A stretch of DNA of 64,000 nt from positions 558,001 through 622,000 of the forward strand of contig NZ_CP077941.1 in assembly GCF_019722725.1 (NCBI RefSeq). Direction: 5' to 3'. A program made the translations under genes and the position numbers. This document shows positions 8,083 through 23,423 of the stretch, in pieces (position 1 is the stretch's first letter; every line of letters begins with the position of its first letter). Source of the stretch: Vreelandella profundi. Lineage in GTDB: Bacteria > Pseudomonadota > Gammaproteobacteria > Pseudomonadales > Halomonadaceae. The notes below the pieces were generated by a model. It saw only the letters and a list, made by a program, of their open reading frames with translations. It was not told the origin of the DNA and searched no databases.

Positions 8083-8211
8083 GTTTCCTGCTCCTCAGTT
8101 ATTAGCACGTAATGAGTTTACGTAGTCGTTAGGCGAGCGAGGCGTGGCGTTTAAGGCCCAGTTGTAGTGTTTGTTAGAGACCTTCTTTGAAAATAGCAGC
8201 ATGTGGTAAAA

Positions 8212-8243
8212 CTGTCGACAGTCGGCAATCGTTCGTCGACAAG
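8212..8243. promoter_or_regulatory. Candidate GntR operator: two GTCGAC half-palindromes
   Basis: In the divergent intergenic region, the palindrome CTGTCGACAG and a second GTCGAC-containing site (TCGTCGACAA) lie with their GTCGAC cores exactly 21 nt apart, two helical turns. They are upstream of the gene for a GntR-family regulator and of the divergent ABC operon, so autoregulation and operon control are plausible. This is a pattern-based inference. Confidence 0.4.
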
Positions 8244-8297
8244 GAGGTTTTTTTCGTCATACTGAAGAAAACGCGTCATACCCCATGAGTAACGTTT

Positions 8298-8987
8298 ATG
8301 GTCTCATCAACGGTGCCTCCTAAGGCCTTTATTCAACAGCAAAACTTAGCCGAGCAAGTTGCCGACTACTTGACCCAAGCGATTGTTAAGCAGCATTTTT
8401 TACCCGGTGAACGGCTTTCAGAAGTGCAGCTTTCCCGCGACTTGGGCGTTAGCCGTGCACCGGTGCGTGAGGCGGCGCGCCTGTTGGAAAGCCGCGGGCT
8501 GCTGATATCAAAACCCCGGCGCGGCTTCTTTGTGAGGGCGTTGAATGCCGTTGAACTCGAAGATGTCTTTGATTTTCGGCTGTGCCTGGAGCGTCATGCG
8601 ATCCACCGCCTAGTCGGCCGCTATACCGCCGATGCCGAGCGCGCGCTAAAGCAACAGGTAGAGGTGCTCTGTGAGGCCGCCATCGGTAACGACGGCACGC
8701 GCCGTATTGAAGAGGATCTGCAGTTTCATCGTTTAATGCTGCACTACGCCGGCAACGAGCGGCTGCTGCGCGCCTTTAACGACTTGAGTCACGAGCTGCG
8801 CTTATGCATTACCTTAATTACCAAAACGCATGAAGCCCCCGACACCATCGCGACCAGCCACTTCAAACTGCTCGATGCGCTGGATAGCGGCAGCCCTGAG
8901 GCTTGCCGCGAGGCAATTGACTACCATATCGGCGTGGCCCGCGACTCCGTAGTAAAGGGTGTGGGCGAAATAGCGGGGGCATACTGA
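8298..8987 (+). CDS. GntR-family transcriptional regulator (FCD domain)
   Basis: The 229-residue protein has an N-terminal winged helix (LPGERLSEVQLSRDLGVSRAPVREAARLLESRGLL, about 35-70) and an alpha-helical FCD effector domain. The FCD domain shows FDFRLCLERHAI, then DLQFHRLMLHYAGN and a late ...YHIG, residues that bind metal and ligand in this family. It probably senses a metabolite related to the peptide-type transporter encoded divergently. Its stop overlaps the start of the downstream amidohydrolase gene, so the two are coupled. Two GTCGAC elements upstream are candidate operator sites. Confidence 0.85.
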   Translation: MVSSTVPPKAFIQQQNLAEQVADYLTQAIVKQHFLPGERLSEVQLSRDLGVSRAPVREAARLLESRGLLISKPRRGFFVRALNAVELEDVFDFRLCLERHAIHRLVGRYTADAERALKQQVEVLCEAAIGNDGTRRIEEDLQFHRLMLHYAGNERLLRAFNDLSHELRLCITLITKTHEAPDTIATSHFKLLDALDSGSPEACREAIDYHIGVARDSVVKGVGEIAGAY

Positions 8988-10009
8988 TGAAAACATTCTT
9001 TCACGCTGAGCAACTGCTCCATCAGCCGCAAACCTACTTCTCCCGCGGGAAAATGCGCACGCCCCAGGAAGTGCCCGAGCGCGCCACGCAGCTATTGGCA
9101 GCCGCTCAACGTCTTGGTTTTGATGTTCAAGCACCCGCTGATTACGGCGTGGCGCCGCTAAGGGCGGTCCATTCGTTTGCCTATCTGGGTTTTCTTGAAA
9201 GTGCCTATCGGCGCTGGCACACGCTTGACGAAGACTGGGGGGAAGAGGTGATCTCCAACATCTTCGTGCGCTCGCCCAACGCCCTGCGCGGCATATTGGC
9301 AGAAGCCGCGCGCTACCTAGCAGACGGCAGCGCACCGGTGGGGCAACATACTTGGCAGTCGGCATACTGGTCAGCGCAAAGCGCGGTGGCCGGTGCCGAG
9401 GCCTTGCTGGCGGGCGATCAGTTTGCCTATGCGCTATCGCGCCCGCCGGGTCATCACGCAGGCATCGACACCGCCGGTGGCTTTTGCTTTCTCAATAATG
9501 CCGCCATTGCCGCGCAGCATCTTAAAACGCGCTATCCGCGCATCGTGGTGTTAGATCCCGATATGCATCATGGGCAGGGTATTCAGGAAATCTTCTACCA
9601 GCGCGACGATGTGCTGTATATCTCGATTCACGGTGATACCACCAATTTTTACCCCGCAGTAACCGGCTTTGAAGACGAGCGTGGTCAGGGTGCGGGGCTG
9701 GGCTACAACCTCAACCTACCGATGCCTCACGGTTCGCCGGAATCGGTGTTTTTTGATCGCATGGAACAAGCCTGCCAGGCCATTCGGCTGTTTGAACCCG
9801 ATGCGATAGTGCTAGCGCTGGGATTCGACATTTACGAGCGAGACCCCCAAGCCAAGGTGACTGTTTCAACTTCAGGGTTCGCTGAGCTAGGCCGCAAAGT
9901 AGCCAGCTTGAACGTACCCACGCTAGTGGTGCAGGAAGGGGGATATTATCTTGAAGGATTGGAAGCCAACGCGGTGAGTTTCTTTGCAGGGTTGCTGGGC
10001 ACCGCTTGA
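8987..10009 (+). CDS. Histone-deacetylase-family amidohydrolase (acetylpolyamine type)
   Basis: The 340-residue zinc hydrolase belongs to the HDAC/acetoin-utilisation superfamily. The active site is complete: RPPGHHAG with the tandem histidines (H156, H157), the zinc ligands in DPDMHHGQG (D192, H194), and LGFDIYERDP supplying the third aspartate. Bacterial relatives of this size, with GGFCFLNNAAIAA, are acetylpolyamine amidohydrolases that remove acetyl groups from polyamines or similar amides. It overlaps the upstream GntR gene by one base and faces a divergent peptide-type ABC transporter, which suggests a pathway that imports and deacetylates a small amide. The substrate is not established. 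Confidence 0.85.
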   Translation: MKTFFHAEQLLHQPQTYFSRGKMRTPQEVPERATQLLAAAQRLGFDVQAPADYGVAPLRAVHSFAYLGFLESAYRRWHTLDEDWGEEVISNIFVRSPNALRGILAEAARYLADGSAPVGQHTWQSAYWSAQSAVAGAEALLAGDQFAYALSRPPGHHAGIDTAGGFCFLNNAAIAAQHLKTRYPRIVVLDPDMHHGQGIQEIFYQRDDVLYISIHGDTTNFYPAVTGFEDERGQGAGLGYNLNLPMPHGSPESVFFDRMEQACQAIRLFEPDAIVLALGFDIYERDPQAKVTVSTSGFAELGRKVASLNVPTLVVQEGGYYLEGLEANAVSFFAGLLGTA

Positions 10010-10132
10010 TACTGGTGGCAATGCCGAATCCAAACGCTCGATAAGAGTAAGACAAGCTATCAATGTGTCTGGCAAGATAGTCGCTTTCTTTGATCAGCAA
10101 AACGATTCGATCAGCAAACGAAAGGACACGGC

Positions 10133-13100
10133 ATGGCCCACCTGCTACGCATCGTGATGATTCACGGCCACCTGGAAGGGGTGGTGGAACTAAGTGTGGA
10201 CGGCCACACCAATATTTGTGGCACCAACGCCTCAGGCAAAACCACGCTGCAGCGGCTGGTGCCGGTGTTTTACGGCGAGCTGCCTAATAAGGTCGTGCCG
10301 AAAACGCGGATGAAGTTCGATGCGTTTTATTTGCCTCATCGTAACAGCTACCTGGTGTACGAATATCGTCGCGAAGCGGGCAATGTCTGCCAGGCGGTGC
10401 TCACCCGCAAAGCCGAAGGTGGGGTCGAGTATCGCTTTGTAGGCGGGCCCTATCAGCCGGAAGATTACTTGGTTGAAAGCGAGGCGGGCGTGGCCGCGTT
10501 AGATTACAGCCAGTGGGCCAGCGGCCTGCGTCGCAGCGGAACGCCGGTGTCGCCCAAGCTGGGCGCGACCTCTGAATTTCGATCGGTGATTCAAAACGAC
10601 TTTACCCAGCTGCACGGCAACAGCCGCGACGGCCTCAAGCTGCGCCAAATCGCCGCCCAGTTCAGCTTGGTTAAACCTGAGCGCCGCATTCGCCATATCG
10701 AAAAGCTGGTTTCCGCGGTGCATGCCAAAGAGGGCAAGATGGACACCCTCAAAACCATGCTGGCGGCGATTTTCGAAGAGGATGGCGTTGAGCTTCCGGT
10801 CACGCGCATTCGCAATACCAAGGCACGGGAGTGGATTGCCCAGATGCGCCAATCCATGCGCCTAGAGCCGCTGCAGGCATCGCTAGCTCGGTTGGCCGGT
10901 ATCGACCGGGAACTAGCCCATTTAGATGCCACGCTATGGCAGCTAAAGCCCCAGCTTGAAGATGACCGCCAGCGGGCAGAGCGGCGTATGGCCGATGTGG
11001 ATGCTGAGCTTGCTCGCCATCAGCGCGACTTTCAGCAGCGTGAAAGCGGCTATGCCCAGGCGCGCGATGAGCTTAATGATCGCCATAGCGAAGTGGTCAG
11101 CGATTTACAGCACACCCAGCGCCGCCTCAATGATCTACAAACTCAGTTTGAGCGCTACTCTGATGCGGACATGCCCGCCCTGGAGCGCGACATCAACGCG
11201 CTGCCCCAGTGGCGCGAACAGCGCGATCAACTGCTTGCCCACTTAAATGAAATGCAGGGCGCGGTGAAGGAGAGCCAGGCGCGCCTGGATGGCCGGCTGC
11301 GCGAACTCTCAGAGTCGTTAGCTCGCCAAACCCGTGAAGCCCAGGAGCTGATCGACGCCTTAGTGGAAGAAAAAGCCCAGCGCCGTGAACAGCAGTGGGA
11401 GGCGGAGCAAACGCTCAATGAGCGCTATCAGCAGGAGCGCCAGCGCCTTGAGGGCGAGTATCAGGCCCAGCTAGAGCTAGGCGTTGAGCAGCTAGCCGAG
11501 CTGAAAGCGCAGCTTTCGCTGACCAGCCAAACCACGGAAGAGGCCAACGAGACGAAGCTTGCCCAGGCGCGCTTGGACCAAGCCCAGCAGGAGCGCAGCG
11601 GGGCGGCCGCAACCCTAGACGGGCTACGCCGTGAGTTTGAAACCCGCAAGCGCGAACGCGATGCCGCTGAGCAGCAGCTGGTGCAGCTTCGCCAGCTGCT
11701 TGAGCGCGCCGAGCAGCGCAGCTTTGCGCTCTATCAACAGCGTGACCCCGAGCAGGGCAGCCTGCGCCATTTCCTGCGCTACCATCGCCCCGGCTGGGAG
11801 CAGCAGCTAGGCAAGGTCGTTGCCCCAGAGCTATTAGAGCGGCGCGATTTAGCCCCACGGCTTGCCGAAGGCGCTAGCGACGACCTGTTTGGATTGGGGT
11901 TAGACCTTTCTGCCATCGCCCTGCCGAGCTACGCCCAGGATGAAGCCAGCCTGCTGGCCGCGATTGAAGAGGCGGACACCGCCAAGCGGCGCGTGCAGAC
12001 AGAGTGCCAAGCGACTGAAAAAGCGCTTAAACAGCACAACGAGCGCGTACAGCAGGCCGATGAAGCTCAGGATCAGGCCCGCATGGCGCATCGGCGCGCC
12101 GAACAGGAAGTCGAGTTCGCGCTAGAGGCGCGCCGCCAGCAGCAGGAGCGCCAAACCAAGCACCAGCAGGAGCGCCGCGCCGCCCATCAGGCCGCGTTAG
12201 CCAGCCAAGAGCAGGCGCAAACCGCGCTGCGTGAGGAAAAACAGCAGGCGCTCGCGGCGCTTGGCGAAACGCAGCAAGGCCAGCTGCTGGAGCTAAAAGC
12301 CGACGGCCAAAGCCAGGTAGACAGCCTGGATGCCCAGCTGCGCCAGTATAAACAGCAGCTTAGCGATGCTAACGCCGAACACCAGCGCCAGCGCGCAGAG
12401 CTTGAAGACGCCTTTAGTCAAGAGCTTGCCGAGCAGGGCGTCGACCCGGCCCAGCTAAAAGCCACCAAAGAGCGCCTGGCGAGCCAGGACGAGCGCATCC
12501 GCACGACCGCCGCGCGGCAGGATGAACTCACCGACTACACGCGCTTTATGCGAGTGGAGTGGGGGCAGCACAAGCCGCAGCTTGTCGCCCAAGAGGCGGA
12601 GCTTGCGCAGGCCGACCAACAATTGGCACGCGATAAAGAGCATCTGAAAAACGACTTTCAGGCCGCGCGTAAAACTCACCAGGGAGCGGTGAGCGGGCTT
12701 AAAACCCAGCGTGAAAGCGAACACGCCTGCCTGGAAGCGTTGAAGCCACTGCTCACGCAGTTGGAAAGCCTAGCTATTGAACCTGATGGCCAAGTGCCAA
12801 CCCAAGCGCTGGGTGATGTGGATGAACGCATTGAGCGCGCCCGGCAGGCATTAGGCAACCGCCACCAGCATATTGAGCAGCTGCGCCGTGGCTGTTTAGA
12901 GGTCGAAAGCCAGCTGATTAAAGATGCCAGCAGCGGTTTTGCCGAAGCGTTGGAAAGTGAGCGCAGCAAGCTGCAAAGCGACAACCCACGCCTACAGCTG
13001 CCGCTACTGCGCGACATGCTCAAACTGCTCGAAGACCAACAGCAGCAGCTGATTCAGGAAGGGCGCAATCTCAGCGACGACCTGGATAAGTTCTTTACCG

Positions 13101-13798
13101 TGTTCCGCGATTTGAACCGGCGCATCAGCGCCCAAAGCCGAAGGCTCTCTGAAGAGGTTGCCGATGATCTGCGCCTGGAAGGCATCACGAAAGCCGAAGT
13201 GCGCATTCAGTCCACCATTGATGAACTCGGCTTCTGGGAGCCGCTGAAGTTGTTTGCCCAGCGCTATAAAGAGTGGCGCGAATCCGGCCAGACGCTGCCC
13301 AGCGACGACTACTTAAACACCCTGGCGGACGTGGTCGATTTACTGCGCAGCGACCAGCAGTACAGTTTTGAAAGCCTGCTGCGCCTGGAGCTGCATCTCA
13401 ACGAAGGCGGCACGGATCTGGTGATCAAAAACGACCGCCAGCTGTTGGAATCCTCCAGCCACGGCATGGCGTATCTGATTCTGTGTAAATTCCTGCTCGC
13501 CTTTACCCGTTTGCTGCGCGGCGATGCGGAAATCGCCATCCACTGGCCGATTGATGAGATTGGCACGCTGGCGTATCACAACGTCGAAAAGCTGTTTGAT
13601 GCCTGCGACAGCAATCGCATTCACATTGTGGGTGCCTTCCCCAACCCTGAATCGGACGTGCTGCTGCTGTTCGCCAACCGCTACTTGATTGATCGCGATG
13701 ATACTCAGCCCAACAAACGGGTGCTAAAGCGCATTGAGCCACGGTTAAGCCGCTTGGCCGAGCGGCTTCAAGAACGTCAGCAGGAGGTGACGGTATGA
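10133..13798 (+). CDS. SMC-like ATPase of a Wadjet/MksBEFG-type system (JetC/MksB-like)
   Basis: This is a 1221-residue SMC-type ATPase. Walker A is GTNASGKT (30-37), followed by a YLP motif (66-68), features I associate with the long DUF3584-type SMC family. A very long, Glu/Gln/Arg-rich coiled coil fills roughly 260-1010, probably with a central hinge near 520-600. The C-terminal head has the signature-like SSSHGM (about 1107-1112) and Walker B IHWPIDE (D1141, E1142). In Wadjet systems such an ATPase extrudes DNA loops and presents small circular DNA for cutting. It is the first gene of a four-gene operon, overlapping the next by ATGA. Assignment rests on domain pattern and operon composition. 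Confidence 0.82.
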   Translation: MAHLLRIVMIHGHLEGVVELSVDGHTNICGTNASGKTTLQRLVPVFYGELPNKVVPKTRMKFDAFYLPHRNSYLVYEYRREAGNVCQAVLTRKAEGGVEYRFVGGPYQPEDYLVESEAGVAALDYSQWASGLRRSGTPVSPKLGATSEFRSVIQNDFTQLHGNSRDGLKLRQIAAQFSLVKPERRIRHIEKLVSAVHAKEGKMDTLKTMLAAIFEEDGVELPVTRIRNTKAREWIAQMRQSMRLEPLQASLARLAGIDRELAHLDATLWQLKPQLEDDRQRAERRMADVDAELARHQRDFQQRESGYAQARDELNDRHSEVVSDLQHTQRRLNDLQTQFERYSDADMPALERDINALPQWREQRDQLLAHLNEMQGAVKESQARLDGRLRELSESLARQTREAQELIDALVEEKAQRREQQWEAEQTLNERYQQERQRLEGEYQAQLELGVEQLAELKAQLSLTSQTTEEANETKLAQARLDQAQQERSGAAATLDGLRREFETRKRERDAAEQQLVQLRQLLERAEQRSFALYQQRDPEQGSLRHFLRYHRPGWEQQLGKVVAPELLERRDLAPRLAEGASDDLFGLGLDLSAIALPSYAQDEASLLAAIEEADTAKRRVQTECQATEKALKQHNERVQQADEAQDQARMAHRRAEQEVEFALEARRQQQERQTKHQQERRAAHQAALASQEQAQTALREEKQQALAALGETQQGQLLELKADGQSQVDSLDAQLRQYKQQLSDANAEHQRQRAELEDAFSQELAEQGVDPAQLKATKERLASQDERIRTTAARQDELTDYTRFMRVEWGQHKPQLVAQEAELAQADQQLARDKEHLKNDFQAARKTHQGAVSGLKTQRESEHACLEALKPLLTQLESLAIEPDGQVPTQALGDVDERIERARQALGNRHQHIEQLRRGCLEVESQLIKDASSGFAEALESERSKLQSDNPRLQLPLLRDMLKLLEDQQQQLIQEGRNLSDDLDKFFTVFRDLNRRISAQSRRLSEEVADDLRLEGITKAEVRIQSTIDELGFWEPLKLFAQRYKEWRESGQTLPSDDYLNTLADVVDLLRSDQQYSFESLLRLELHLNEGGTDLVIKNDRQLLESSSHGMAYLILCKFLLAFTRLLRGDAEIAIHWPIDEIGTLAYHNVEKLFDACDSNRIHIVGAFPNPESDVLLLFANRYLIDRDDTQPNKRVLKRIEPRLSRLAERLQERQQEVTV

Positions 13799-14424
13799 TC
13801 GAACATGGCCCACTGCTAGAGCGCCTGCTGGCCGGTGAGTTTGTCTGCCCGATCAGCGATGAGAGCGGCTACCGCCATCTCACCAATGAAGAGACCCGGG
13901 AGGAGATCGATACCTACCTGCGGCCGCTTAACCGGCGGCTGGCCAGCAACGAAGACGGCAGCGTCTATTTTCTGGCTTGGCGGCAGTTGAACGACAGCGC
14001 TCGTGATCAGCTTTCGCGCCAGCTGGGCGATACGCTTAATAGTCTGCTGCCGCTGTTGGAATGGCTGCAGCTGGTTCAAGAAGCACTAGGCCGCGATACG
14101 CTGGCCGCCCCCGGCGATGTGCTGAAACCCGCTGAGTTCAGCGCCAAGTGTGAAGATAACCAAAGCCTGCGCGAGCGCCTGGAACGCCTAGCCACCGACA
14201 GTTTTTTTGGCTCCCAAAGCGACCAGCTCGATGCCCAGGTAAAGCAGGTGTTCAAGCGCTTGAAAGAGCACGGCTACCTGCTTCAGCCGCATTCAGAGCG
14301 ACAGGTTTTTGTGGTCACCGGCAAGATCGACTACTTAGTCGATCTGGTACGCTTTATCCGCGATGAAGAAAACCTGCCGATTGAGGCGGAGGAGGGCAGC
14401 GGTTCCCAGGAGGCGCTGCTTTGA
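13795..14424 (+). CDS. MksE/JetB-like kite subunit
   Basis: The 209-residue soluble protein has the size and pattern of MksE/JetB accessory winged-helix subunits: LLERLLAGEFVCPISDESGYRHL at the start, then EIDTYLRPLNRRL and VYFLAW, and a C-terminal winged-helix-like part (VFKRLKEHGYLLQP...FVVTGKIDYLVDLVRFI). Kite subunits dimerise on the kleisin in SMC complexes. It overlaps the SMC gene by 4 nt at its start and the kleisin-like gene by 4 nt at its end, so the three should be made in fixed ratio. The call depends on context as much as on sequence. Confidence 0.72.
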   Translation: MIEHGPLLERLLAGEFVCPISDESGYRHLTNEETREEIDTYLRPLNRRLASNEDGSVYFLAWRQLNDSARDQLSRQLGDTLNSLLPLLEWLQLVQEALGRDTLAAPGDVLKPAEFSAKCEDNQSLRERLERLATDSFFGSQSDQLDAQVKQVFKRLKEHGYLLQPHSERQVFVVTGKIDYLVDLVRFIRDEENLPIEAEEGSGSQEALL

Positions 14425-15692
14425 ATAAAAGTGTGAGCCTGAGCGTGAATAACAGTGCGAGTGAGCTAGAAAGCCGCCTGGTGAAAACCGGCAGCGAGCG
14501 CTTGGCGCTGCTGGGTAAGCATGCCGATGTATTAATGCAGGCCTACACCCGCGATGAAGTGCCGCTAGAATCGCTCAGCGATAGCGGGCTGCGTAAGCTG
14601 CTGGCCGCGCGCATTTTATGGCGGCCCGACGAACAAAGCGGCGTGAAGCTGGCGCCCAAGGTGCGCGAACTGATTGCCGAGATGCTCGCCGATGAAACCC
14701 GCCGCCATGTGAACGCCGACGTAGCGGAAACTCTGGAGCTGATTCGCGCCCTAGTACACAGCTACCGCGAAGCGCGCAGCCGTGGCGAGCACTGGCGGTT
14801 AGAGCAGCAGTTGATGCGCCTGCGCCAGGAGGTCGACGACCTTAACGGCCGCTTCGCCGATGCTATTGATAGCCTTTGGCAGCGGCTGAACAGTGATTTT
14901 GGTTTTGTCAGCCAGCTCAACGACAAAATCCGCGAAAACGACCGCGCCCAGAAGCAGATCGCTCGCCTGTTAGATGGCCTGGCGCTGATCGACTTCGACG
15001 AGCTGATTGAGCTAGTGGGTAGCGACGGCAGTCTGCGCAAGCTATTGATCAGCCAGCTTCAGCAGCAGTTAAGTAATCACTACACCGGCCTGCGCGAAGT
15101 GCAGCGGCGCTTGATCGAGCTGATGGCGCGCTTTCGCAAGCAGCAGGCGCGCAGCCGCTTGATCAGTGGCATGGCGGCGTTTATGCGCGAACATCCCGGT
15201 TTTGTACCCGGTAACTATGCACGCCGCAGCGACGTGCCCACGCTGGTTAATCAAGCCGCACCGCTAAGTGCCGCCGCCGCCCCGGCGCTGGATCGCAACC
15301 TCGACAGCCAAGCCCTGGCTGAGCTGCTGCACCAGCTACCCCAGCCGCGCCATACCACCCAGTCAGTAGAAGCCGCGGCCCCTGCTCAAGCCCAGCAAAC
15401 CAGCATAGCCGCCGCCCGCCAGCAGGCGCTCAAACAGGATGTCGAGCACTTCTACCTAAGCGTGATCGATCAGCCCCAGGCGGAACCGGTTAGCGCCCTT
15501 GCGTACCTGCAAGAAAGCCCGCTGGAGTGGCCGGATGAAATCTGGCTGTTCCAGGTAATTGCCGAGTACCAGAGCCTGCCGCGCAACGACCAGCGCGCGT
15601 TTCAGCTCAAACAGCAGGAAAGCCAGGCCAGCCGCTTCAATCACCTGCGCCTGATTCACGACGTTGAGCTACAGCTGGCTGTGCCGGTATGA
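14421..15692 (+). CDS. Kleisin-like subunit (MksF/JetA-like), TTG start
   Basis: This 423-residue, mostly helical protein has an N-terminal winged-helix-like region (LMQAYTRDEVPLESLSDSGLRKLLAARIL) and a long helical stretch (about 95-250). A low-complexity Ala/Gln/Pro linker spans about 285-345, and a C-terminal winged-helix-like region starts at VEHFYLSVIDQ. That layout suits an MksF/JetA kleisin, which bridges the SMC heads. The start is TTG, fixed by an AGGAGG site 7 nt upstream. It overlaps both neighbours by 4 nt. No catalytic motif is visible, as expected for a structural subunit. Confidence 0.68.
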   Translation: MNKSVSLSVNNSASELESRLVKTGSERLALLGKHADVLMQAYTRDEVPLESLSDSGLRKLLAARILWRPDEQSGVKLAPKVRELIAEMLADETRRHVNADVAETLELIRALVHSYREARSRGEHWRLEQQLMRLRQEVDDLNGRFADAIDSLWQRLNSDFGFVSQLNDKIRENDRAQKQIARLLDGLALIDFDELIELVGSDGSLRKLLISQLQQQLSNHYTGLREVQRRLIELMARFRKQQARSRLISGMAAFMREHPGFVPGNYARRSDVPTLVNQAAPLSAAAAPALDRNLDSQALAELLHQLPQPRHTTQSVEAAAPAQAQQTSIAAARQQALKQDVEHFYLSVIDQPQAEPVSALAYLQESPLEWPDEIWLFQVIAEYQSLPRNDQRAFQLKQQESQASRFNHLRLIHDVELQLAVPV

Positions 15693-16570
15693 ACCTGCCC
15701 AGCCGCGCGCGCACCGGGCTTAATGAAGTCGCCCGCTTGCTCTGCCAGCAGCCCACGGTAGTGAGGCCGCGCCGTCAGTGGGTAGACGACATGGTGGCCT
15801 GGTGCCATCAGCATGATATTGATCTAGCCGCGCGGCTAAGCGGTAAAACGCTACGCTTTGATGCCGTGCTGTTGGCGCAGATTAACGACGTACTCGAAAG
15901 CGCCAAAATAGCGCCACTGGGCCGCTCGCTCAGCGGGTTAACCAGCACCGCCCAGGCGAAAGAAGGCGTAGAAGAAGACAAAACCAGCCGCGAAAGCCCC
16001 CGCGCACGGCGGGTGTTAATCAGCCTACCGCCGGAAGCCTCGCCGTTGTTCGTACACGGGCTTGCACAGCCGCCGAGCACTATTCGCGATGTGGATATCC
16101 AGACGCTAAAGCTAAGCGCATTCAGCGCTTTAATTCAGGTCGAAAACCTCGACAGTTTCTATGCGTTTACAACCGATAGCTCAGCGCTAAGCGACTACGT
16201 TAATCCGCTGATCGTCTACCGCGGCGACAGCCACTACGGCGGTGGCTTCGCCTTGCTGGCCGAGGCCTGGCATAAAACCGGCAGGCCACATATTTATGCC
16301 GGTGATTTCGATGTTAAAGGCGTCACGCTAGCGCTCGATAGCAACGCCACTCACTTGCTCCTGCCCACCATCGAATGGCTCACACTGCATATCACGTCGC
16401 TGCATGTGCCTGCTGAGCAGTTTCCTTATCAGCGCAGGCTTCGCAAACACTTTGCTGCGCTGCCGTCCGCTCATCCATTGCGTGAGTACTTAACGCTGCT
16501 GCTGGAAAAGCAGCGTGGGTTAAAGCAGCAGTGGTTTGGTGGGAAGATGGTTTGTGTGGGGCTGGTGTAA
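15689..16570 (+). CDS. JetD/MksG-like TOPRIM nuclease (compact)
   Basis: At 293 residues this is shorter than the roughly 400 I expect for JetD. The C-terminal half has a TOPRIM-type metal site: the glutamate in IQVENLDSF (E152) and the DxD in YAGDFDVKG (D206, D208), resembling the VEN and GDIDTHG motifs of JetD proteins. The N-terminal part (about 1-110) probably forms the arm that contacts the SMC complex; it includes a Ser/Lys/Arg-rich linker. In Wadjet systems this subunit cuts extruded plasmid DNA. It is the last gene of the four-gene overlapping operon. Confidence 0.75.
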   Translation: MNLPSRARTGLNEVARLLCQQPTVVRPRRQWVDDMVAWCHQHDIDLAARLSGKTLRFDAVLLAQINDVLESAKIAPLGRSLSGLTSTAQAKEGVEEDKTSRESPRARRVLISLPPEASPLFVHGLAQPPSTIRDVDIQTLKLSAFSALIQVENLDSFYAFTTDSSALSDYVNPLIVYRGDSHYGGGFALLAEAWHKTGRPHIYAGDFDVKGVTLALDSNATHLLLPTIEWLTLHITSLHVPAEQFPYQRRLRKHFAALPSAHPLREYLTLLLEKQRGLKQQWFGGKMVCVGLV

Positions 16571-16614
16571 TTGCTTACCTATTTATCGCAAGCCCCCTGT
16601 ATTGTGCCCTTCGA

Positions 16615-16647
16615 CCGTAGGCGCATTGCTGAGTGATGCGCCTGCGG
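16615..16647 (+). terminator. Hairpin downstream of the SMC operon
   Basis: A 12-bp stem with one G-U pair (CCGTAGGCGCAT and ATGCGCCTGCGG, 9-nt loop) lies 45 nt after the nuclease stop. It lacks a U tract, so it may be a weak or Rho-assisted terminator, or an RNA-stabilising hairpin. Confidence 0.4.
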
Positions 16648-16726
16648 CAGTATGATTGAAACCGGCAAAACGCGCAGGCACGCGAATTTTGAATATACTG
16701 CCAAATTTTGCTTTGCTCTCAGCAGA

Positions 16727-16827
16727 AACAATGGGGTAGAGTCAATTTTCGGGGCAGCATAACCTCAATCAATGTGCCGTCGCGTTTATTGAGGTTATCT
16801 AGCCTTCCGTATAATCACTGTTATGCG
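16727..16827 (+). promoter_or_regulatory. Integron attI/Pc-like element, copy A
   Basis: This element of about 100 bp lies directly upstream of the first gene cassette. It holds an inverted repeat (CTCAAT...ATTGAG), a promoter-like TTGAGG (16789-16794) and TATAAT (16810-16815) with a 15-nt spacer, and then CACTGTTATGC, whose GTTATGC resembles an integron recombination core. A clearly related copy occurs at 27636-27729. It could be a cassette promoter with an attI-type insertion point. No integrase gene is present nearby, so the attI reading is an inference. Confidence 0.5.
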
Positions 16828-16865
16828 CCTCACTAATTTTACCGTGAAAGAATAAGAAGGAATAT

Positions 16866-18365
16866 ATGGCAGTATCACAACAAGTTTTGCACTTGATGAA
16901 GGTTAAGTTCTTAAAAAACTTAAAAGACCTTGAGATCTCTTTTGAAGGGTCTTCCGTTACTGCAATATTAGGCCCAAATGGAAACGGGAAGTCCACAATT
17001 CTACACGCTTTAGCTTGTTCGTTCTCACCAAACGAATTTGGCGAGGATTACAAGTTTAGCTGGTTTTTTCTCCCCAGCACTGATGCTCTATGGAATGATA
17101 GTGAGCTAAGTATTATTCATAGTTTTAGAGATGCTCAAGTAGTACATCAGAGCGTACCGAGAGAATATAAGAAAACACAGGTTCGGTGGACTCCACGATA
17201 CGCTAACAGACCAAAGCGAGACGTATTTTACATTGGGATTGATAAGTGCGTCCCCATGATAGAGTCAGAAAAAAAACAGGCTAAAATAAATTATTCAACC
17301 AAGGAAGTAAATGAAGATATTATCAACATCATCCTTGAAAAAGCATCGGTTGTGCTGAATCGAAACTATTCTGGCTACAACGTCCATACAGCATCCGGAA
17401 AGGAATTTATCGGAGTCGTTGTTGACGGTCTCAGATATTCTGCTCTCAGCATGAGTGCTGGCGAACAGAAAGTATTTTATATTCTTGAAAAAATATTTAG
17501 AGCGAATAAATACTCACTTATATTGATTGACGAACTTGACTTGTTGCTACACGACCAGGCAATGAAAAAACTTGTTGATGTGATTTTAGAGCGGTCTAAT
17601 GAAAAGAAACTTCAAGTTATTTTCACGACTCATCGAGAAAGTATTTTGGAGCTTGAGGATAGGATAAATATAAGGCATATCGTTTGCCGTCCCAACAAAA
17701 CTTTATGTTTTAATGAAACGAAACCTGATGCAATTAACAGGCTTACAGGAGTTCAGCCGACACCTATAGAAGTGTTCGTAGAAGACGACCTTGCGGCTAC
17801 TATCGTGAAGAAAGTTGCAGCTAAGCTTAGGATTGCAAAATACACGTCGGTAAGAAGATACGGCGCAGCCACCAATTGCTTTACAACTGTAGGAGGGTTG
17901 TTACTTGGTGGTGAAACTTGTGATAACTCTCTTTTCGTATTGGATGGAGATGTCTATCGAACACCTGAGGAAAAAGTTACCGCAGTTAATAGGGTGCTGA
18001 CTGGCCATGATCAAAATGTTCTACAGGCCAAATCAATCGCAATTTCTATTATTAAGCAGTTTATCTTGCCGGATGCTGTACCGCCTGAAAAGCACCTCCA
18101 CTCTTTGTTGATTAATATGGTGGAAACTGACAATGATGAATTTAATGAAATTATTGAAGTGGCCACAGAAATTATAGCTGTTGATAATGAGCATAAGTTT
18201 ATTAATGATATTATTCATAGGCTTGGCTGGGAAAGAGCAATAGGGCTTTCAAAAATAGTTGATCTTGCTGCCACATCTGGTGATTGGGATAACTATGTTA
18301 GTGAAGTTTTTGCGTGGCTTAGCTCTAAAAAAGATAACATGAGAGAGGAGCTGGCGGTCGCATAA
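16866..18365 (+). CDS. OLD-like ATPase with TOPRIM nuclease domain (cassette gene)
   Basis: The 499-residue protein combines an ABC-type ATPase with a TOPRIM domain. The ATPase has Walker A GPNGNGKST (36-44), signature MSAGEQ (196-201), Walker B LILIDE (D222, E223) and a switch histidine in TTH (256). The TOPRIM domain has VEDD (E306) and the DxD of VLDGDVY (D360, D362). This is the architecture of overcoming-lysogenization-defect (OLD) nucleases and of GajA-like antiphage proteins. No partner helicase (GajB) follows, so it may act alone. It is AT-rich compared with neighbours, has AAGGAA upstream, and ends inside attC1, so it is a mobile gene cassette. Antiphage function is inferred. Confidence 0.78.
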   Translation: MAVSQQVLHLMKVKFLKNLKDLEISFEGSSVTAILGPNGNGKSTILHALACSFSPNEFGEDYKFSWFFLPSTDALWNDSELSIIHSFRDAQVVHQSVPREYKKTQVRWTPRYANRPKRDVFYIGIDKCVPMIESEKKQAKINYSTKEVNEDIINIILEKASVVLNRNYSGYNVHTASGKEFIGVVVDGLRYSALSMSAGEQKVFYILEKIFRANKYSLILIDELDLLLHDQAMKKLVDVILERSNEKKLQVIFTTHRESILELEDRINIRHIVCRPNKTLCFNETKPDAINRLTGVQPTPIEVFVEDDLAATIVKKVAAKLRIAKYTSVRRYGAATNCFTTVGGLLLGGETCDNSLFVLDGDVYRTPEEKVTAVNRVLTGHDQNVLQAKSIAISIIKQFILPDAVPPEKHLHSLLINMVETDNDEFNEIIEVATEIIAVDNEHKFINDIIHRLGWERAIGLSKIVDLAATSGDWDNYVSEVFAWLSSKKDNMREELAVA

Positions 18366-18430
18366 CAAGCCACTTCACTCGGAAATTTTACTCGCTTTGC
18401 TCCCAAAATTCCGGTGAGTGGAGCGTTATG
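18361..18430 (+). repeat. Integron attC site 1
   Basis: The 70-bp imperfect palindrome begins CATAACAAGCCACTTCACT and ends GGTGAGTGGAGCGTTATG. The arms pair over CATAAC, CACT, CAC and CGG with unpaired extra T bases on one arm, the extrahelical-base pattern that defines attC polarity. It overlaps the stop of the ATPase-TOPRIM gene, as is usual for cassettes. Confidence 0.8.
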
Positions 18431-18446
18431 TTCTTCGGGAAAGCTC

Positions 18447-18938
18447 ATGGAAGCACTGATAGATACGTTTAGAAATTCACTGCTAAGCATAACGAATGCG
18501 CGCTTTTATGGAACAGAGCGAGGATTCCAAGGAGAGCTAAGTGCTGAATTGTGATCCAGGCTTAAGGCGCTTGAAATCGACGGTGCCATCGTTGAACAGG
18601 AGTATCAAAAACGAATGAGGGATCATGGGTTTCAAATTCGCCCTGATCTAGCAATTCACATTCCTTTTGAAGGCGCCGGATTCGAGAGTCGTTCGCAGGG
18701 TAATTTTGCGGTTGTTGAATTAAAGCGTCGAGCTAGCAGAAGTAGTGCTCGAGCTGACTATCAAAACCTTCAACGAATGTGCCAAGAGTTAGGTTACCCA
18801 TTGGCCATATTCATAAACATTGATAGCAATGAGACTTTCATTGATGAGTGCTCTCCGTCGGGCCACGGAGCTATCCATGCATTTGCGGTTAGGTTTATTG
18901 AAGGTGAGGTCCAAATCACAGAGCAATCCAGAACATAA
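18447..18938 (+). pseudogene. PD-(D/E)XK nuclease-like cassette gene with in-frame TGA
   Basis: One frame runs from ATG 18447 to TAA 18936-18938 and is broken only by a TGA at 18552-18554 (codon 36). Read through, it gives about 163 residues: GTERGFQGELSAEL, stop, then SRLKALEIDGAIVEQEYQKR, HGFQIRPDLAIHIP and GNFAVVELKRR. The D in RPDLAI and the ELK form a plausible PD-(D/E)XK metal site. Flanking attC sites mark it as a gene cassette. It may be a nonsense-inactivated nuclease-like gene, or translation could restart at ATG 18615 to give a 107-residue product. The protein family is not named with certainty. Confidence 0.65.
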
Positions 18939-19003
18939 CAAGCGCAATCACGCGGATCAAATTTCCGCTGCGCTTCAATTTTCCCGGTGTTGCGGGCGTT
19001 AAG
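18934..19003 (+). repeat. Integron attC site 2
   Basis: A 70-bp imperfect palindrome: CATAACAAGCGCAATCACG at the left pairs with CGGTGTTGCGGGCGTTAAG at the right (TAAC, GC, GCAA, CAC, CGG pair, with extra bases on the left arm). It overlaps the TAA of the preceding cassette gene. The central TTTCCGCTGCGCTTC is shared with sites 4 and 6. Confidence 0.82.
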
Positions 19004-19019
19004 TTTTATCGAGGAAGAA

Positions 19020-19376
19020 ATGCGAATTCTAATCGGAATCGCTTCCGGCATAGTGTTGGGAATGATTGGCTGCCTGTTTATTCTAGCTGGTTCATTTGTT
19101 TCATCAGCGTATGGAGCAAATGCTATAGGTATGGTATTAGCAATGCCGGGGTATATAATTATCGCTCCGGGGCTTCTTGGGGTGGGGCTAATCGACTATT
19201 TGCCAATGCATCTTATTTTCCCTAGCGGTGGTGCTTCAGGAGTTTTTGGTAGTATTTTGTTGCTTGCAATAATTTTCTGGTCGACCGTACTTAGTTTTCT
19301 ATCATCTAAGCGATATTGGCCGTACAAAACCTTAACAAAAAGCTCAAGCAAGGACGCCACAAGCGGCGCCGCTTAG
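19020..19376 (+). CDS. Small membrane protein (cassette gene)
   Basis: A 118-residue hydrophobic protein starts at ATG 19020, with GAGG just upstream. It shows three predicted membrane segments: IGIASGIVLGMIGCLFILAG (3-22), a central stretch through GYIIIAPGLLGVGLI, and SILLLAIIFWSTVLSFL near 87-103, then a short polar Ser/Lys tail. No family is recognised. Its end lies inside attC3 and it starts right after attC2, so it is a single-gene cassette. The function is unknown. Confidence 0.6.
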   Translation: MRILIGIASGIVLGMIGCLFILAGSFVSSAYGANAIGMVLAMPGYIIIAPGLLGVGLIDYLPMHLIFPSGGASGVFGSILLLAIIFWSTVLSFLSSKRYWPYKTLTKSSSKDATSGAA

Positions 19377-19387
19377 CTTGGCATTAG
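19331..19387 (+). repeat. Integron attC site 3 (short)
   Basis: A compact palindrome of about 57 bp: CTTAACAAAAAGCTCAAGC pairs with GCTTAGCTTGGCATTAGG through AAGCT, AAGC, GG and CGCC with unpaired bases on the left arm. The right core is CATTAGG rather than GTTAGG, so it is slightly degenerate. The preceding gene's stop codon lies within it. Confidence 0.7.
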
Positions 19388-19405
19388 GTGAGCACAGAAT
19401 CGAGT

Positions 19406-20227
19406 ATGGATAAGAAAGCGAAGAAAATATTATTCTCCACCTACTGGAAGAATGGATGGATTGACTCCAAAGATAGAGTTCTATCTGGTCAGAACTTTGA
19501 GTACGCTAAGTCACAAGATTTAATGTTTGATCCAATTTCAATTTCTCATGATGCGTGCATAGAAGCTATTGAAAATTTGGTTAGTGAAATATCACGAGAG
19601 AAAATTGCTAAAGGTTTTTTAAGTAGCCTGACATCTCGCCGTTTGGACTGGAGGTCTTCTTTATCTTCGTATTCAATTGCCAAAAAAATACCAGTGCATA
19701 AATATACACCAGTTATCACCGGCACTGCATATACTGATGGGAAGCTCACTTCACACTCTTATACCTGCGGGGTGTGCAGGGATTGCCAATACGGGGTAGT
19801 GGGCTGTCAGAACTATGATGATGCTGATATAAACGTATTGAATTTTGAGCGTATTAAATGGGGTGGTGTCCGTCATGGTGATATCTTGTACACGTACTTT
19901 GACTTAAGCCAATTTTCAAATGCAGATATCCCTGAGCCTGATGATGAAGATATTAATTGTTTCAAGGAAATATTGAAAACCATCGAGTTCTCGAAACCAT
20001 CAGATTACCCTAGTGCCCTGGAAAAAAGATTGGCTGGTGTCGTAAAGTCTAGCAAAGCGGAAAGACAGGTATTAATTGAAATTTTAGCCAGTATTGGTGT
20101 GTTAAAGCCTGGCAGCTACGATCGACCCGTTAAAGGTAGGAATGACTGGGTTTTTGTTGAATATTGGCGAGGTGAAGACAAATATTGTCATAAGGCTGTA
20201 GGTGAATATTTTGGGAAATATCTGTAG
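19406..20227 (+). CDS. Unknown Cys-cluster protein (cassette gene)
   Basis: A soluble protein of 273 residues (279 if the GTG at 19388 is used). I do not recognise the family. A compact cysteine group, CGVCRDCQYGVVGC (about 123-136), suggests bound zinc or a disulphide-rich loop. The rest is mixed helix and strand, acidic near PEPDDEDINC, with an aromatic C-terminus (NDWVFVEYWRGEDKY). Its position between attC3 and attC4 and its AT-rich codon use mark it as a gene cassette. No toxin, immunity or nuclease motif could be identified. Confidence 0.6.
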   Translation: MDKKAKKILFSTYWKNGWIDSKDRVLSGQNFEYAKSQDLMFDPISISHDACIEAIENLVSEISREKIAKGFLSSLTSRRLDWRSSLSSYSIAKKIPVHKYTPVITGTAYTDGKLTSHSYTCGVCRDCQYGVVGCQNYDDADINVLNFERIKWGGVRHGDILYTYFDLSQFSNADIPEPDDEDINCFKEILKTIEFSKPSDYPSALEKRLAGVVKSSKAERQVLIEILASIGVLKPGSYDRPVKGRNDWVFVEYWRGEDKYCHKAVGEYFGKYL

Positions 20228-20245
20228 CTACGAGCGTGGCAAATC

Positions 20246-20317
20246 ACCTGACAAGCGCATGTTGTCGGACTGCTTTTCCGCTGCGCTCCAAATCAGCTGC
20301 AAATGCGGGCGTTAGGT
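20246..20317 (+). repeat. Integron attC site 4
   Basis: A 72-bp palindrome from ACCTGACAAGCGCATGTTG to CAAATGCGGGCGTTAGGT, with arms pairing ACCT, AC, GC, GCAT, TTG and CTG and extra bases on the left. The centre TTTTCCGCTGCGCTCC matches site 6. The left core is CTGAC rather than CTAAC. Confidence 0.8.
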
Positions 20318-20342
20318 ATAAGTAAAAAAGGGATAGGGAAAT

Positions 20343-20714
20343 ATGGCTAGAAGTAACAAACCGATCGTCCGGACTTATAGGGGCAAACAGGCCGTAGCAC
20401 AGCGGTCGTTTCTGAACGACGCCGAGAAGCAAGAAGCTAAAGGTTACTTTCCAGTTTCCGAGAAATGGGAGCCGGGTTCGTATGGCTGTCTTGGGTTTCT
20501 GGTGGCACTTGTACTTTGCTTCGTGCTCATAGGGTTTTTAATATTCATATATATGGTCTTGGTGAAACCACCGGGCACGCTGACCGTTACTTACGAATAT
20601 CAGCCCGAGCAGCAAAAAATAGTAGTGGAAGAAAAAACGTGTCCCAAATGTGCTGAAAATGTCAAAGCCGCAGCGCTTGTCTGTCGGTTTTGCGGTCATG
20701 ATTTCGCTCATTAG
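20343..20714 (+). CDS. Zinc-ribbon membrane protein (cassette gene)
   Basis: A 123-residue protein with an N-terminal polar part, one strong membrane helix (FLVALVLCFVLIGFLIFIYMVLV, about 51-73), and a C-terminal zinc ribbon with two CxxC pairs (CPKC at about 100-103 and CRFC at about 115-118). It starts 6 nt after a GGGA-containing ribosome site. Zinc-ribbon membrane proteins of this kind have no defined function. It sits between attC4 and attC5 and is a single-gene cassette. Confidence 0.65.
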   Translation: MARSNKPIVRTYRGKQAVAQRSFLNDAEKQEAKGYFPVSEKWEPGSYGCLGFLVALVLCFVLIGFLIFIYMVLVKPPGTLTVTYEYQPEQQKIVVEEKTCPKCAENVKAAALVCRFCGHDFAH

Positions 20715-20733
20715 CAGCAAAGTCGGAAAATTT

Positions 20734-20836
20734 ACCCAACAGTACGCTGCAGTTGACCGCCCAAAGCGCTGCCGCGCTTTGGGTTCTCTCCACAGCCTTC
20801 GGCTGCTCCGGCGGCAACTGAGCTTAGGCGTTATAG
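20734..20836 (+). repeat. Integron attC site 5 (long)
   Basis: A site of about 103 bp. The outer arms CGCTGCAGTTGACCGC and GCGGCAACTGAGC pair, with the cores CCCAAC on the left and GCGTTATAGC on the right. An additional internal hairpin (CCAAAGCGC...GCGCTTTGG) fills the long terminal structure. Confidence 0.72.
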
Positions 20837-20846
20837 CTAATCAAAT

Positions 20847-21278
20847 ATGAAACTACTAGTACTAACGATGACTCTATTGTTATCAGGCTGTGTTGTTTAT
20901 CCAATAAACAAAACTCTTCAGCCTGAGGCTGAAATTCTCGTAACAGATGGGGAAGGAAAGCCCATTCAGGATGCTTGGGTGTCTTTAATATCGAGCTCCT
21001 ACCCTTATGGCCTTGAACAAAGCAGGATGATAGATAAAACCAGCTATAGAGGTGAGGCAAACTTTCCAAAAATTAAGGAGTGGCGTGCTGAATCATTAAT
21101 GATTCACGGCTCGCAGGTGTTCTTTTGGAATTGGTGCGTCGTAAAAGTAGGCTTTGAAACACACACTACAATGTGGGGTGGCGGTAATGACTTTCAAGCC
21201 CAATACGAAGTCATTCTTAATCCAGGGGAAAGCACGCCATGTCCAGAAGAGCCAAATAAAATTGGCCGCAGGCTATAG
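20847..21278 (+). CDS. Small lipoprotein (cassette gene)
   Basis: A 143-residue protein with a lipoprotein signal (MKLLVLTMTLLLSGC, lipobox LLSGC, Cys15). The mature part begins with a beta-rich segment of the kind seen in carboxypeptidase-regulatory or transthyretin-like folds (AEILVTDGEGKPIQDAWVSLISS). No enzymatic motif is seen and the family is not recognised. No clear ribosome site precedes the ATG, which is common in cassette genes. It lies between attC5 and the degenerate attC6. Confidence 0.6.
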   Translation: MKLLVLTMTLLLSGCVVYPINKTLQPEAEILVTDGEGKPIQDAWVSLISSSYPYGLEQSRMIDKTSYRGEANFPKIKEWRAESLMIHGSQVFFWNWCVVKVGFETHTTMWGGGNDFQAQYEVILNPGESTPCPEEPNKIGRRL

Positions 21279-21337
21279 CAAGCGCATGTTGCCGGACTGG
21301 TTTTCCGCTGCGCTCCAAGCCAGCCGAAAATGCGGGC
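21272..21337 (+). repeat. Integron attC site 6, degenerate and fused to an rnz remnant
   Basis: The body matches site 4 (AAGCGCATGTTGCCGGACT... and TTTTCCGCTGCGCTCC), and the arms still pair up to TGCGGGC. The left core is TATAGC instead of TATAAC, and the expected right core GTTAG is replaced by GAAAGCC. From that G onward the sequence follows the interior of the rnz gene. Confidence 0.7.
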
Positions 21338-21500
21338 GAAAGCCATCTTGGTTACCCATGTACACGGTGACCACTGCTACGGGGAACGTGAAAAATTAGC
21401 CCAACAGGGTTTTCTCGTAGCGCAATGGTGGGGTCAGTTGAAGCAAGGATTTGATATTGAGGTCGCGGGTGATCGATTACTGCCCCTAACCAGTGGATGA
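21330..21500 (+). pseudogene. In-frame deleted ribonuclease Z (metallo-beta-lactamase) remnant
   Basis: An ATG within attC6 opens a 56-codon frame that continues AKAILVTHVHGDHCYG, then jumps to EREKLAQQG and WWGQLKQGFDIEVAGDRL. These match residues about 56-70 and 159-189 of the intact Rnz at 23424-24386. About 88 codons are missing without loss of frame. It keeps the HxHxDH motif but lacks the rest of the active site, so it cannot be a working nuclease. It is either a decaying paralogue or a chimeric small ORF. Confidence 0.75.
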
Positions 21501-21566
21501 AGCCGACCGATACTGCGCTATGCTGCGGCAGCTTAGCGCAGTACGCTATGTGCTTTCGGGGAAAAA

Positions 21567-21983
21567 ATGAAAAAGTATTTACTAATAGCTCTCGCTGCCA
21601 TGTCGTTGTCAGCCGTTGCTGACGACGAGGAGCTTGATTGCAATAATATAATGAATACGCTTGAGACCAATCGGTGCGCGGCTATCGAGTTAGAGGCCGC
21701 CGAGGATGACCTCACCCACTATCTGGAAACGAGCGTTGAACATAACGCGGTTGACCCTGTGTTAGTCGATGCTATCCAGGTGGCTCAAAAGCAGTGGCAG
21801 GCGTATACCGCTGCCCATTGCGGCGCTGTCTATACGCAATGGCGCGACGGGACCATTCGAAACGTTATGACGATTTCTTGCAGAACCAGGTTAACGAAAC
21901 AAAGAACGCATGACATCTGGGAAGACTTCCTAACGTATATGGATAGTACTCCGCCGGTTTTACCGGAACCAGGTGTTGAGTAA
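21567..21983 (+). CDS. Secreted LprI/DUF1311-like small protein
   Basis: A 138-residue protein with a Sec signal (MKKYLLIALAAMSLSAVADD) and a mature domain with spaced cysteines and the pattern LDCNN...TNRCAAIELEAAEDDL...AQKQWQAYTAAHCGAVY...SCRTRLTKQRT. This is the DUF1311 / lysozyme-inhibitor LprI-like family, small periplasmic proteins of mostly undefined function, some of which inhibit lysozyme. It follows the rnz remnant by 66 nt and converges on gldA. Confidence 0.7.
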   Translation: MKKYLLIALAAMSLSAVADDEELDCNNIMNTLETNRCAAIELEAAEDDLTHYLETSVEHNAVDPVLVDAIQVAQKQWQAYTAAHCGAVYTQWRDGTIRNVMTISCRTRLTKQRTHDIWEDFLTYMDSTPPVLPEPGVE

Positions 21984-23252: not shown

Positions 23253-23423
23253 GGCAGATATTTCCTATACATAGAATGAGTTGCATGATCAGTGTAGTCA
23301 CTTATGCCACTGACGCGCCTGCGGTGATTTGACGCCTGTGCATGTTAACTTAGCTAACTGGCTCAGCGCCTTGGTCCCACGCGTGTGCACAAGCGATTAC
23401 GAACAACAGAGTATAAACAAGAT

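Follow-up and report, generated by a model that had tools for sequence, protein, structure and literature searches.

A DUF3584 SMC operon with its own TOPRIM nuclease, and relatives that keep the core genes without it

We analyzed a 64-kb window of DNA from Vreelandella profundi (bases 558001-622000; the genome is a single contig of 3.64 Mb, and its near relatives are Halomonas and Vreelandella); "the window" below is this whole stretch, and coordinates given without a locus name are positions within it. At 10133-16570 we found an operon of four genes encoding an SMC ATPase, a KITE subunit, a kleisin-like subunit and a TOPRIM nuclease. Our reading, to which we assign a probability of about 0.6, is that the products assemble into a MukBEF/JetABC-like complex that extrudes loops and has its own TOPRIM nuclease, forming a second lineage of such systems, and that in many relatives it exists as a nuclease-free condensin.

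The operon and its four products

The four genes are as follows.

10133..13798, + strand: SMC ATPase, DUF3584 (PF12128), 1221 amino acids, ATG start; assigned by Pfam, motifs and hhalign.
13795..14424, + strand: KITE subunit, MksE-like, 209 amino acids, ATG start; assigned by Pfam PF21980.
14421..15692, + strand: kleisin-like subunit, 423 amino acids, TTG start; assigned by a predicted model of moderate confidence.
15689..16570, + strand: TOPRIM nuclease, DUF7281 (PF23947), 293 amino acids, ATG start; assigned by Pfam, aligned acidic residues and fold.

Adjacent genes overlap by 4 nt at each of the three junctions. An earlier note, made from the sequence alone, had listed four open reading frames with these coordinates, start codons, lengths and overlaps, and all of them are present; the operon is also GC-rich relative to the adjoining array, as that note had claimed, with 58-62% GC in operon windows versus 41-48% just downstream. 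The same genes occur in the same order in 67 loci of related genomes, which excludes a chance origin of the arrangement. Promoter and terminator scans across 9900-16900 returned no more candidates than shuffled sequence did.

The first protein matches Pfam PF12128 along its full length (738.6 bits against a cut-off of 31; residues 8-1187). Its Walker A motif, GTNASGKTT, occupies residues 30-38, its signature, ESSSHGM, begins at residue 1106, and its Walker B motif, HWPIDEIG, begins at residue 1137 and supplies D1141/E1142; the two Walker motifs thus lie where they had been placed from the sequence (residues 30-37 and D1141/E1142). Compared with a profile built from 19 SMCs in the canonical JetC position, the protein reached an hhalign probability of 97.1. 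The genome encodes a separate, ordinary Smc (1041 bits), so that an accessory condensin role would fit the operon core.

The KITE protein exceeds the cut-off for Pfam MksE (PF21980; 29.7 bits, cut-off 27) and falls under that for PF13835 (DUF4194; 21.7 bits). Many of its relatives bear the NCBI name "condensin complex protein MksE". Against a JetB profile its hhalign probability was 11.0, yet the alignment was colinear, a result of profile comparison only. The third protein matched no Pfam family above any cut-off. Its model, of moderate confidence, has long helices, a weakly predicted linker at about residues 265-325 and a C-terminal end of helix and strand, and its nearest folds are chains from MukBEF entries, which we take to be MukF. 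Against 20 canonical JetA proteins the hhalign probability was 0.3, so it does not qualify as a DUF3375-family kleisin, and PF11855 (JetA, DUF3375) found no match in the source genome at E <= 0.001. We also considered the protein as a relative of JetA, JetB, JetC or JetD, and rejected this at probabilities of only 0.3, 0.6, 1.5 and 13.5, respectively; "DUF3375 domain-containing protein" is the UniRef name of a few entries among its relatives. Because those relatives often begin later (409-419 amino acids), the TTG start is plausible rather than firm.

The fourth protein matches Pfam DUF7281 (51.3 bits, cut-off 27). The residues E152, D206 and D208, already singled out in the earlier note, are invariant among 39 aligned sequences and line up with the Glu and DxD of JetD-position proteins (hhalign 93.6); the PADLOC JetD models match at E values of 0.003-0.01. 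A simple motif search in distant relatives missed the Glu in L209 and L233 and the DxD in L229. The nuclease has 293 residues with its TOPRIM part from about residue 102, whereas the canonical open reading frames have 389-493 with TOPRIM from 206-217, so that it is about 100 residues shorter at the N-terminus than JetD-position proteins. Since its length differs from that of its relatives, we considered whether an element had integrated at the gene's 3' end, and dropped the idea because the C-termini are conserved. All 15 canonical JetD-position proteins carry RLEQE or GLEQE near the C-terminus, where this nuclease has GLKQQW; in five distant DUF7281 proteins (L109, L111, L112, L231, L233) xxQE stands in place of LEQE. 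Judging from the conserved Gln and the nearness to the C-terminus, LKQQ probably occupies the LEQE position. According to PMC10123090, mutation of the metal-binding residue E236 or D279 of MksG impairs cutting, and the MksG/JetD glutamates E349 and E351 are proposed as alternative nucleophiles. Since this nuclease lacks the glutamates proposed to be catalytic in JetD, it should help to settle how such TOPRIM enzymes cut.

Among the folds nearest to the nuclease are Topo VI-A and Spo11, with MksG and JetD about equally near, in a comparison that covered the protein apart from its N-terminal domain. The first two would suit a condensin in which the TOPRIM protein takes part in maintaining the chromosome, for example by cutting or untangling DNA at the complex's own loops, and not in defense; that the plasmid-cutting nucleases MksG and JetD are about as close argues against this alternative, which we consider unlikely also on the grounds given below.

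Gene order, nuclease loss and selection on the core

We found the order SMC-KITE-kleisin in 67/67 near loci (one of them from Celerinatantimonas), in 36/36 loci of family f161, in 13/13 loci fetched from a phylum survey, and in the six far loci with readable neighbors (L109-L113, L115). These six come from 12 fetched regions; two of the remainder, L107 and L108, were included in the f161 counts, and four were left out: L114 (an SMC fragment), L116 (a contig end), and L117 and L118 (under the cut-off). In L118, the sub-cut-off DUF3584 match at 7270-11910 is a 924-residue SMC-like gene that follows genes of 426 and 199 residues, apparently the opposite order, with no obvious nuclease.

As a control we used the DUF3375 (JetA) lineage, that of Wadjet type I alone. 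DUF3375 gave 41 matches in 369 genomes of the class, 37 of them over the cut-off. Every one of the 20 loci fetched begins kleisin-KITE; in 19 the SMC comes next, and in 15 a nuclease was detected at the end. These results bear out two statements of the earlier note: that known systems start with kleisin and KITE and place the SMC third, and that an operon starting with the SMC points to a lineage of its own.

The control also bears on the possibility that the operon is a divergent member of a described Wadjet type whose genes have merely been shuffled. PADLOC labels JetC1 and JetC3 "DUF3584 domain", its JetC1 and JetD models match the operon weakly, and at the profile level both the SMC and the TOPRIM protein match their counterparts in canonical loci. 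In the SMC, however, the JetC1 match (E 6.6e-5, next to 4.9e-5 for the LmuB model) has its best stretch at residues 1-42 only; neither the JetA and JetB models nor the JetA profile is matched; and among the 369 class genomes, PF12128 (over the cut-off in 10) and PF11855 (in 37) coincide only in G305, at two separate places. We regard shuffling as very improbable.

In a phylum-wide draw, DUF3584 exceeded the cut-off in 22/398 genomes, all 22 from the window's class. Within the genus the operon SMC is present in 30 of 36 other genomes, a frequency that would agree with a maintenance condensin. One genome that lacks the operon, G035, retains the upstream genes and a broken nuclease relic, so the operon was lost there rather than never gained.

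The nuclease has been lost repeatedly. Apart from the window, 60 near loci have intact SMC, KITE and kleisin genes; the nuclease is intact in 50 and not intact in 10. Of these ten, six have none, two have remnants (40 and 69 amino acids), and the last two carry a gene divided into two parts several kb from each other, as an insertion might leave it. The seven near loci excluded from the 67 are L037 and L086, at contig ends, and L073, L076, L077, L084 and L085, in which the SMC is broken, with other genes broken too in some; sequencing error is possible in these five. On a tree built from SMC, KITE and kleisin, eight nuclease changes are needed, at least six of them forced by the starred branches. 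An SMC tree of 103 rows gave 14 changes, of which 11 were forced; this tree joins long branches to one another, and L113, whose fourth gene reached only 13.9 bits to DUF7281, was scored in it as nuclease-bearing. In a length-based binomial comparison of nuclease-only with core-only breaks, 10 versus 2 gave 1e-7 and 8 versus 2 gave 4e-6, figures that exclude three loci with both broken and disregard the exposed last position of the nuclease gene.

Loss is extensive in family f161. The SMC occurs in 36 of its 79 genomes, and the nuclease is absent from the operon in 33 of these 36 loci. Defined by identity to the query L107, not by tree, a first group (n=25; SMC at least 48% identical) has the nuclease beside the core in 0/25 loci, and a second (n=11; 33-36% identical) has it in three, with an 80-residue remnant in one and nothing in seven. 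DUF7281 exceeded the cut-off in only 4 of the 79 genomes, three times at the operon itself. Similarly, the nuclease is present in seven and missing in six of the 13 loci from the phylum survey; within one genus, g369 of family f213, L224 and L225 carry it and L226 and L227 have none, the core of L226 being followed directly by a transporter gene much like the one behind the L224 nuclease. All 43 SMCs from near and f161 loci without the nuclease retain the GKT of Walker A, the DE of Walker B and the signature.

We measured selection as the ratio of nonsynonymous to synonymous substitution rates (dN/dS) by the Nei-Gojobori method. Eight nuclease-free pairs were tried: dS was saturated throughout in four, and L195/L196 was saturated for SMC. 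The pair L202/L203 gave 0.07 for SMC, 0.008 for KITE and 0.06 for kleisin, and L205/L206 gave about 0.03 for each core gene; for L199/L200, from the f161 group without any nuclease, the ratios were about 0.03-0.04, which are rough because dS exceeds 1. In seven near pairs the ratio was 0.13-0.19 for the nuclease, versus 0.04-0.06 for SMC, 0.02-0.04 for KITE and 0.04-0.07 for kleisin. Because recombination is possible at L049 and L051, it is chiefly the f161 pairs that carry the argument from selection. These two Chromohalobacter loci have a bacterial globin gene (PF01152, tested in L049) at the nuclease position, 15587-16009 in locus coordinates. We considered a single, old nuclease loss shared by both, since the globin replacement is the same (94% over 500 nt), and did not adopt it, as L057 within the group keeps its nuclease; recombination may lie behind the shared replacement.

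In L076 and L084 an intact nuclease stands beside a broken SMC, contrary to the pattern. Median dN/dS over 589 wider pairs does not separate the genes (TOPRIM 0.171, SMC 0.175, KITE 0.113, kleisin 0.164), which contradicts the nuclease as always having the highest ratio. In many of these pairs dS is high or unreliable, and the seven near pairs were used instead; over the same 589 pairs, nuclease identity is lowest (66.6% versus 80.6-85.2%) and its dN highest (0.244 versus 0.082-0.132).

Because the nuclease has been lost repeatedly while the core has been kept under purifying selection, these data show that the core has a role needing no nuclease of this type. That role is probably chromosome organization. 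The strong constraint on the core would also be expected of the maintenance condensin considered above, whose nuclease, however, should be neither lost often nor the least conserved subunit. A further alternative is a dedicated anti-plasmid defense, in which the complex acts only with a nuclease and the nuclease-free relatives restrict in some other way or use one encoded elsewhere. The Wadjet-like composition of four parts and the fast evolution of the nuclease in the near pairs speak for it. Against it stand the absence of the nuclease from the entire first f161 group, the scarcity of DUF7281 elsewhere in those genomes (no search was made for nucleases of other families in trans), and the strong purifying selection on the f161 core genes where it could be measured. 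We judge this alternative improbable, although somewhat less so than the maintenance condensin.

The neighborhood of the operon

Upstream lie a GntR regulator and a histone-deacetylase-like gene, conserved in many Vreelandella loci; that the same upstream genes are retained in many loci is a further point against a dedicated defense system. Downstream, the operon is bordered by one more feature, which is context outside the complex.

16571..21983, no strand: AT-rich variable region; recognized by its drop in GC, a PADLOC HEC-04 match and variability in relatives.

In 32 relatives, the interval from the nuclease to an RNase Z-like gene is an AT-rich stretch of 1.4-6.9 kb with a GC fraction of 0.34-0.51. 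Compared by length, GC and open reading frame layout, these stretches mostly differ in layout, similar ones being seen in just a few closely related pairs (L062/L063, for example). We took one of the larger downstream proteins from each of ten of these loci, chosen by size and not at random: seven match PADLOC families at E <1e-40 (type IIG restriction-modification, PDC-M36A, LmuB, Drt, SduA, PDC-S25 and NsnA), and the other three gave one weak match and two none. At this same place, L025, L032, L034, L064, L065 and L088 carry genes for type IIG restriction-modification, Lamassu LmuB, DRT reverse transcriptase, SduA, PDC-S25 and an NsnA-like protein. In the window, an AAA/SMC-like ATPase gene at 16866-18365 matches PADLOC HEC-04 (E 2.9e-40), and 18615-18938 weakly matches part of PD-Lambda-3_A. 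The place downstream of the nuclease is likely a turnover site for defense genes, and the operon looks to lie at the edge of a defense hotspot. Such a neighborhood makes a defense role of the operon likelier, and adjoining defense genes are a third point in favor of the dedicated anti-plasmid system.

The variable region also contains three 60-nt repeats, at 18939, 20252 and 21279, with a related start at 18361 (region 18361-21340). They begin CAAGCGCA (TAACAAGC in two of them) and end GCGGGCG, and in shape they resemble integron attC sites; the AT-rich genes among them may be gene cassettes. Two further segments, 21338-21383 (89%) and 21389-21475 (78%), share this much identity with parts (23588-23986) of the gene at 23385-24386, which is RNase Z-like, and could be what is left of a duplicated or replaced copy.

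Proposed action and comparison with known systems

The loop-extrusion mechanism of MukBEF and of Wadjet is established, and Wadjet cuts circles. By analogy with these systems, the SMC dimer, kleisin and KITE would load on DNA and extrude loops by ATP hydrolysis. The core would normally act on the chromosome, beside the ordinary Smc, as selection on the core and the nuclease-free relatives suggest. On a small circle that had been fully reeled in, the TOPRIM dimer would cut, as in Wadjet, and the operon could in this way contribute to plasmid defense. With the nuclease lost, as in many relatives, the core would remain as a nuclease-free condensin; that the core persists suggests a use for extrusion as such, the simplest being chromosome organization. 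More tentatively, and at somewhat less than even odds in our estimation, DUF3584/DUF7281 may be a second, independently organized branch in which one machine both organizes the chromosome and cuts plasmids, and in which defense has turned into a housekeeping condensin many times.

In this lineage of repeated loss, sister genomes have the same core genes with and without a nuclease behind them. The passage from defense to condensin can therefore be tested with closely related complexes, and the lineage offers a test case for how defense machines turn into chromosome organizers. A 2023 review (PMC10586767) suggests that MukBEF and MksBEF stem from Wadjet, in P. aeruginosa via nuclease loss, and treats their origin as unresolved.

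Like the nuclease-free MksBEF and MukBEF, many relatives of the operon consist of three genes, SMC-KITE-kleisin, and the kleisin model is nearest to the presumed MukF chains; the SMC, in contrast, is DUF3584 and not MukB. In the 79 f161 genomes, MukB (PF04310) was found in 0/79 at E <= 0.001 and Smc in 73/79 at E <= 1e-100. Since most of these genomes also hold Smc, the DUF3584 core is generally no replacement for it. Topoisomerase VI subunit A and Spo11 differ from the operon nuclease in that the latter is encoded with an SMC complex.

Several searches returned little. NCBIfam gave nothing over its cut-offs for the operon proteins, and when the PDB was searched by sequence, using the SMC protein together with alignments of the kleisin, the nuclease and the KITE, nothing at E <= 1 looked like a credible relative, which is why folds were compared. 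With PADLOC-DB 2.0.0 the Jet matches were weak or partial, with none to JetA or JetB, and defense surveys using those models would therefore probably overlook the operon. Our literature search, with most subscription journals outside its scope, found no description of this DUF3584/DUF7281 lineage.

The closest comparison is with Wadjet type I and MksBEFG, to which the earlier note had assigned the operon as a divergent type. Part of that assignment stands. Both systems combine SMC, KITE, kleisin (here by the moderate-confidence model) and TOPRIM nuclease in one operon; the SMC and TOPRIM profiles match canonical JetC and JetD; the KITE lies above the Pfam MksE cut-off; MksG and JetD are among the folds nearest to the nuclease; and structure prediction, proposed as a check in that note, gave kleisin-like and TOPRIM folds for the third and fourth proteins, so that for these two the outcome named there as refuting did not arise. 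Other parts do not stand. The Wadjet models match only weakly or partially, and the profile comparison that the note had also called for linked the kleisin to no JetA (DUF3375). The type I order is kleisin-KITE-SMC-nuclease whereas ours is SMC-KITE-kleisin-nuclease, and the order mksFEBG given in PMC10123090 likewise differs. Finally, the type I nuclease is longer and carries LEQE where the shorter operon nuclease has KQQ. We conclude that the Wadjet/MksBEFG label is right as an analogy and as a remote kinship of the SMC, KITE and nuclease, and that, because several of the family's defining features are missing, the system belongs beside it, not inside it.

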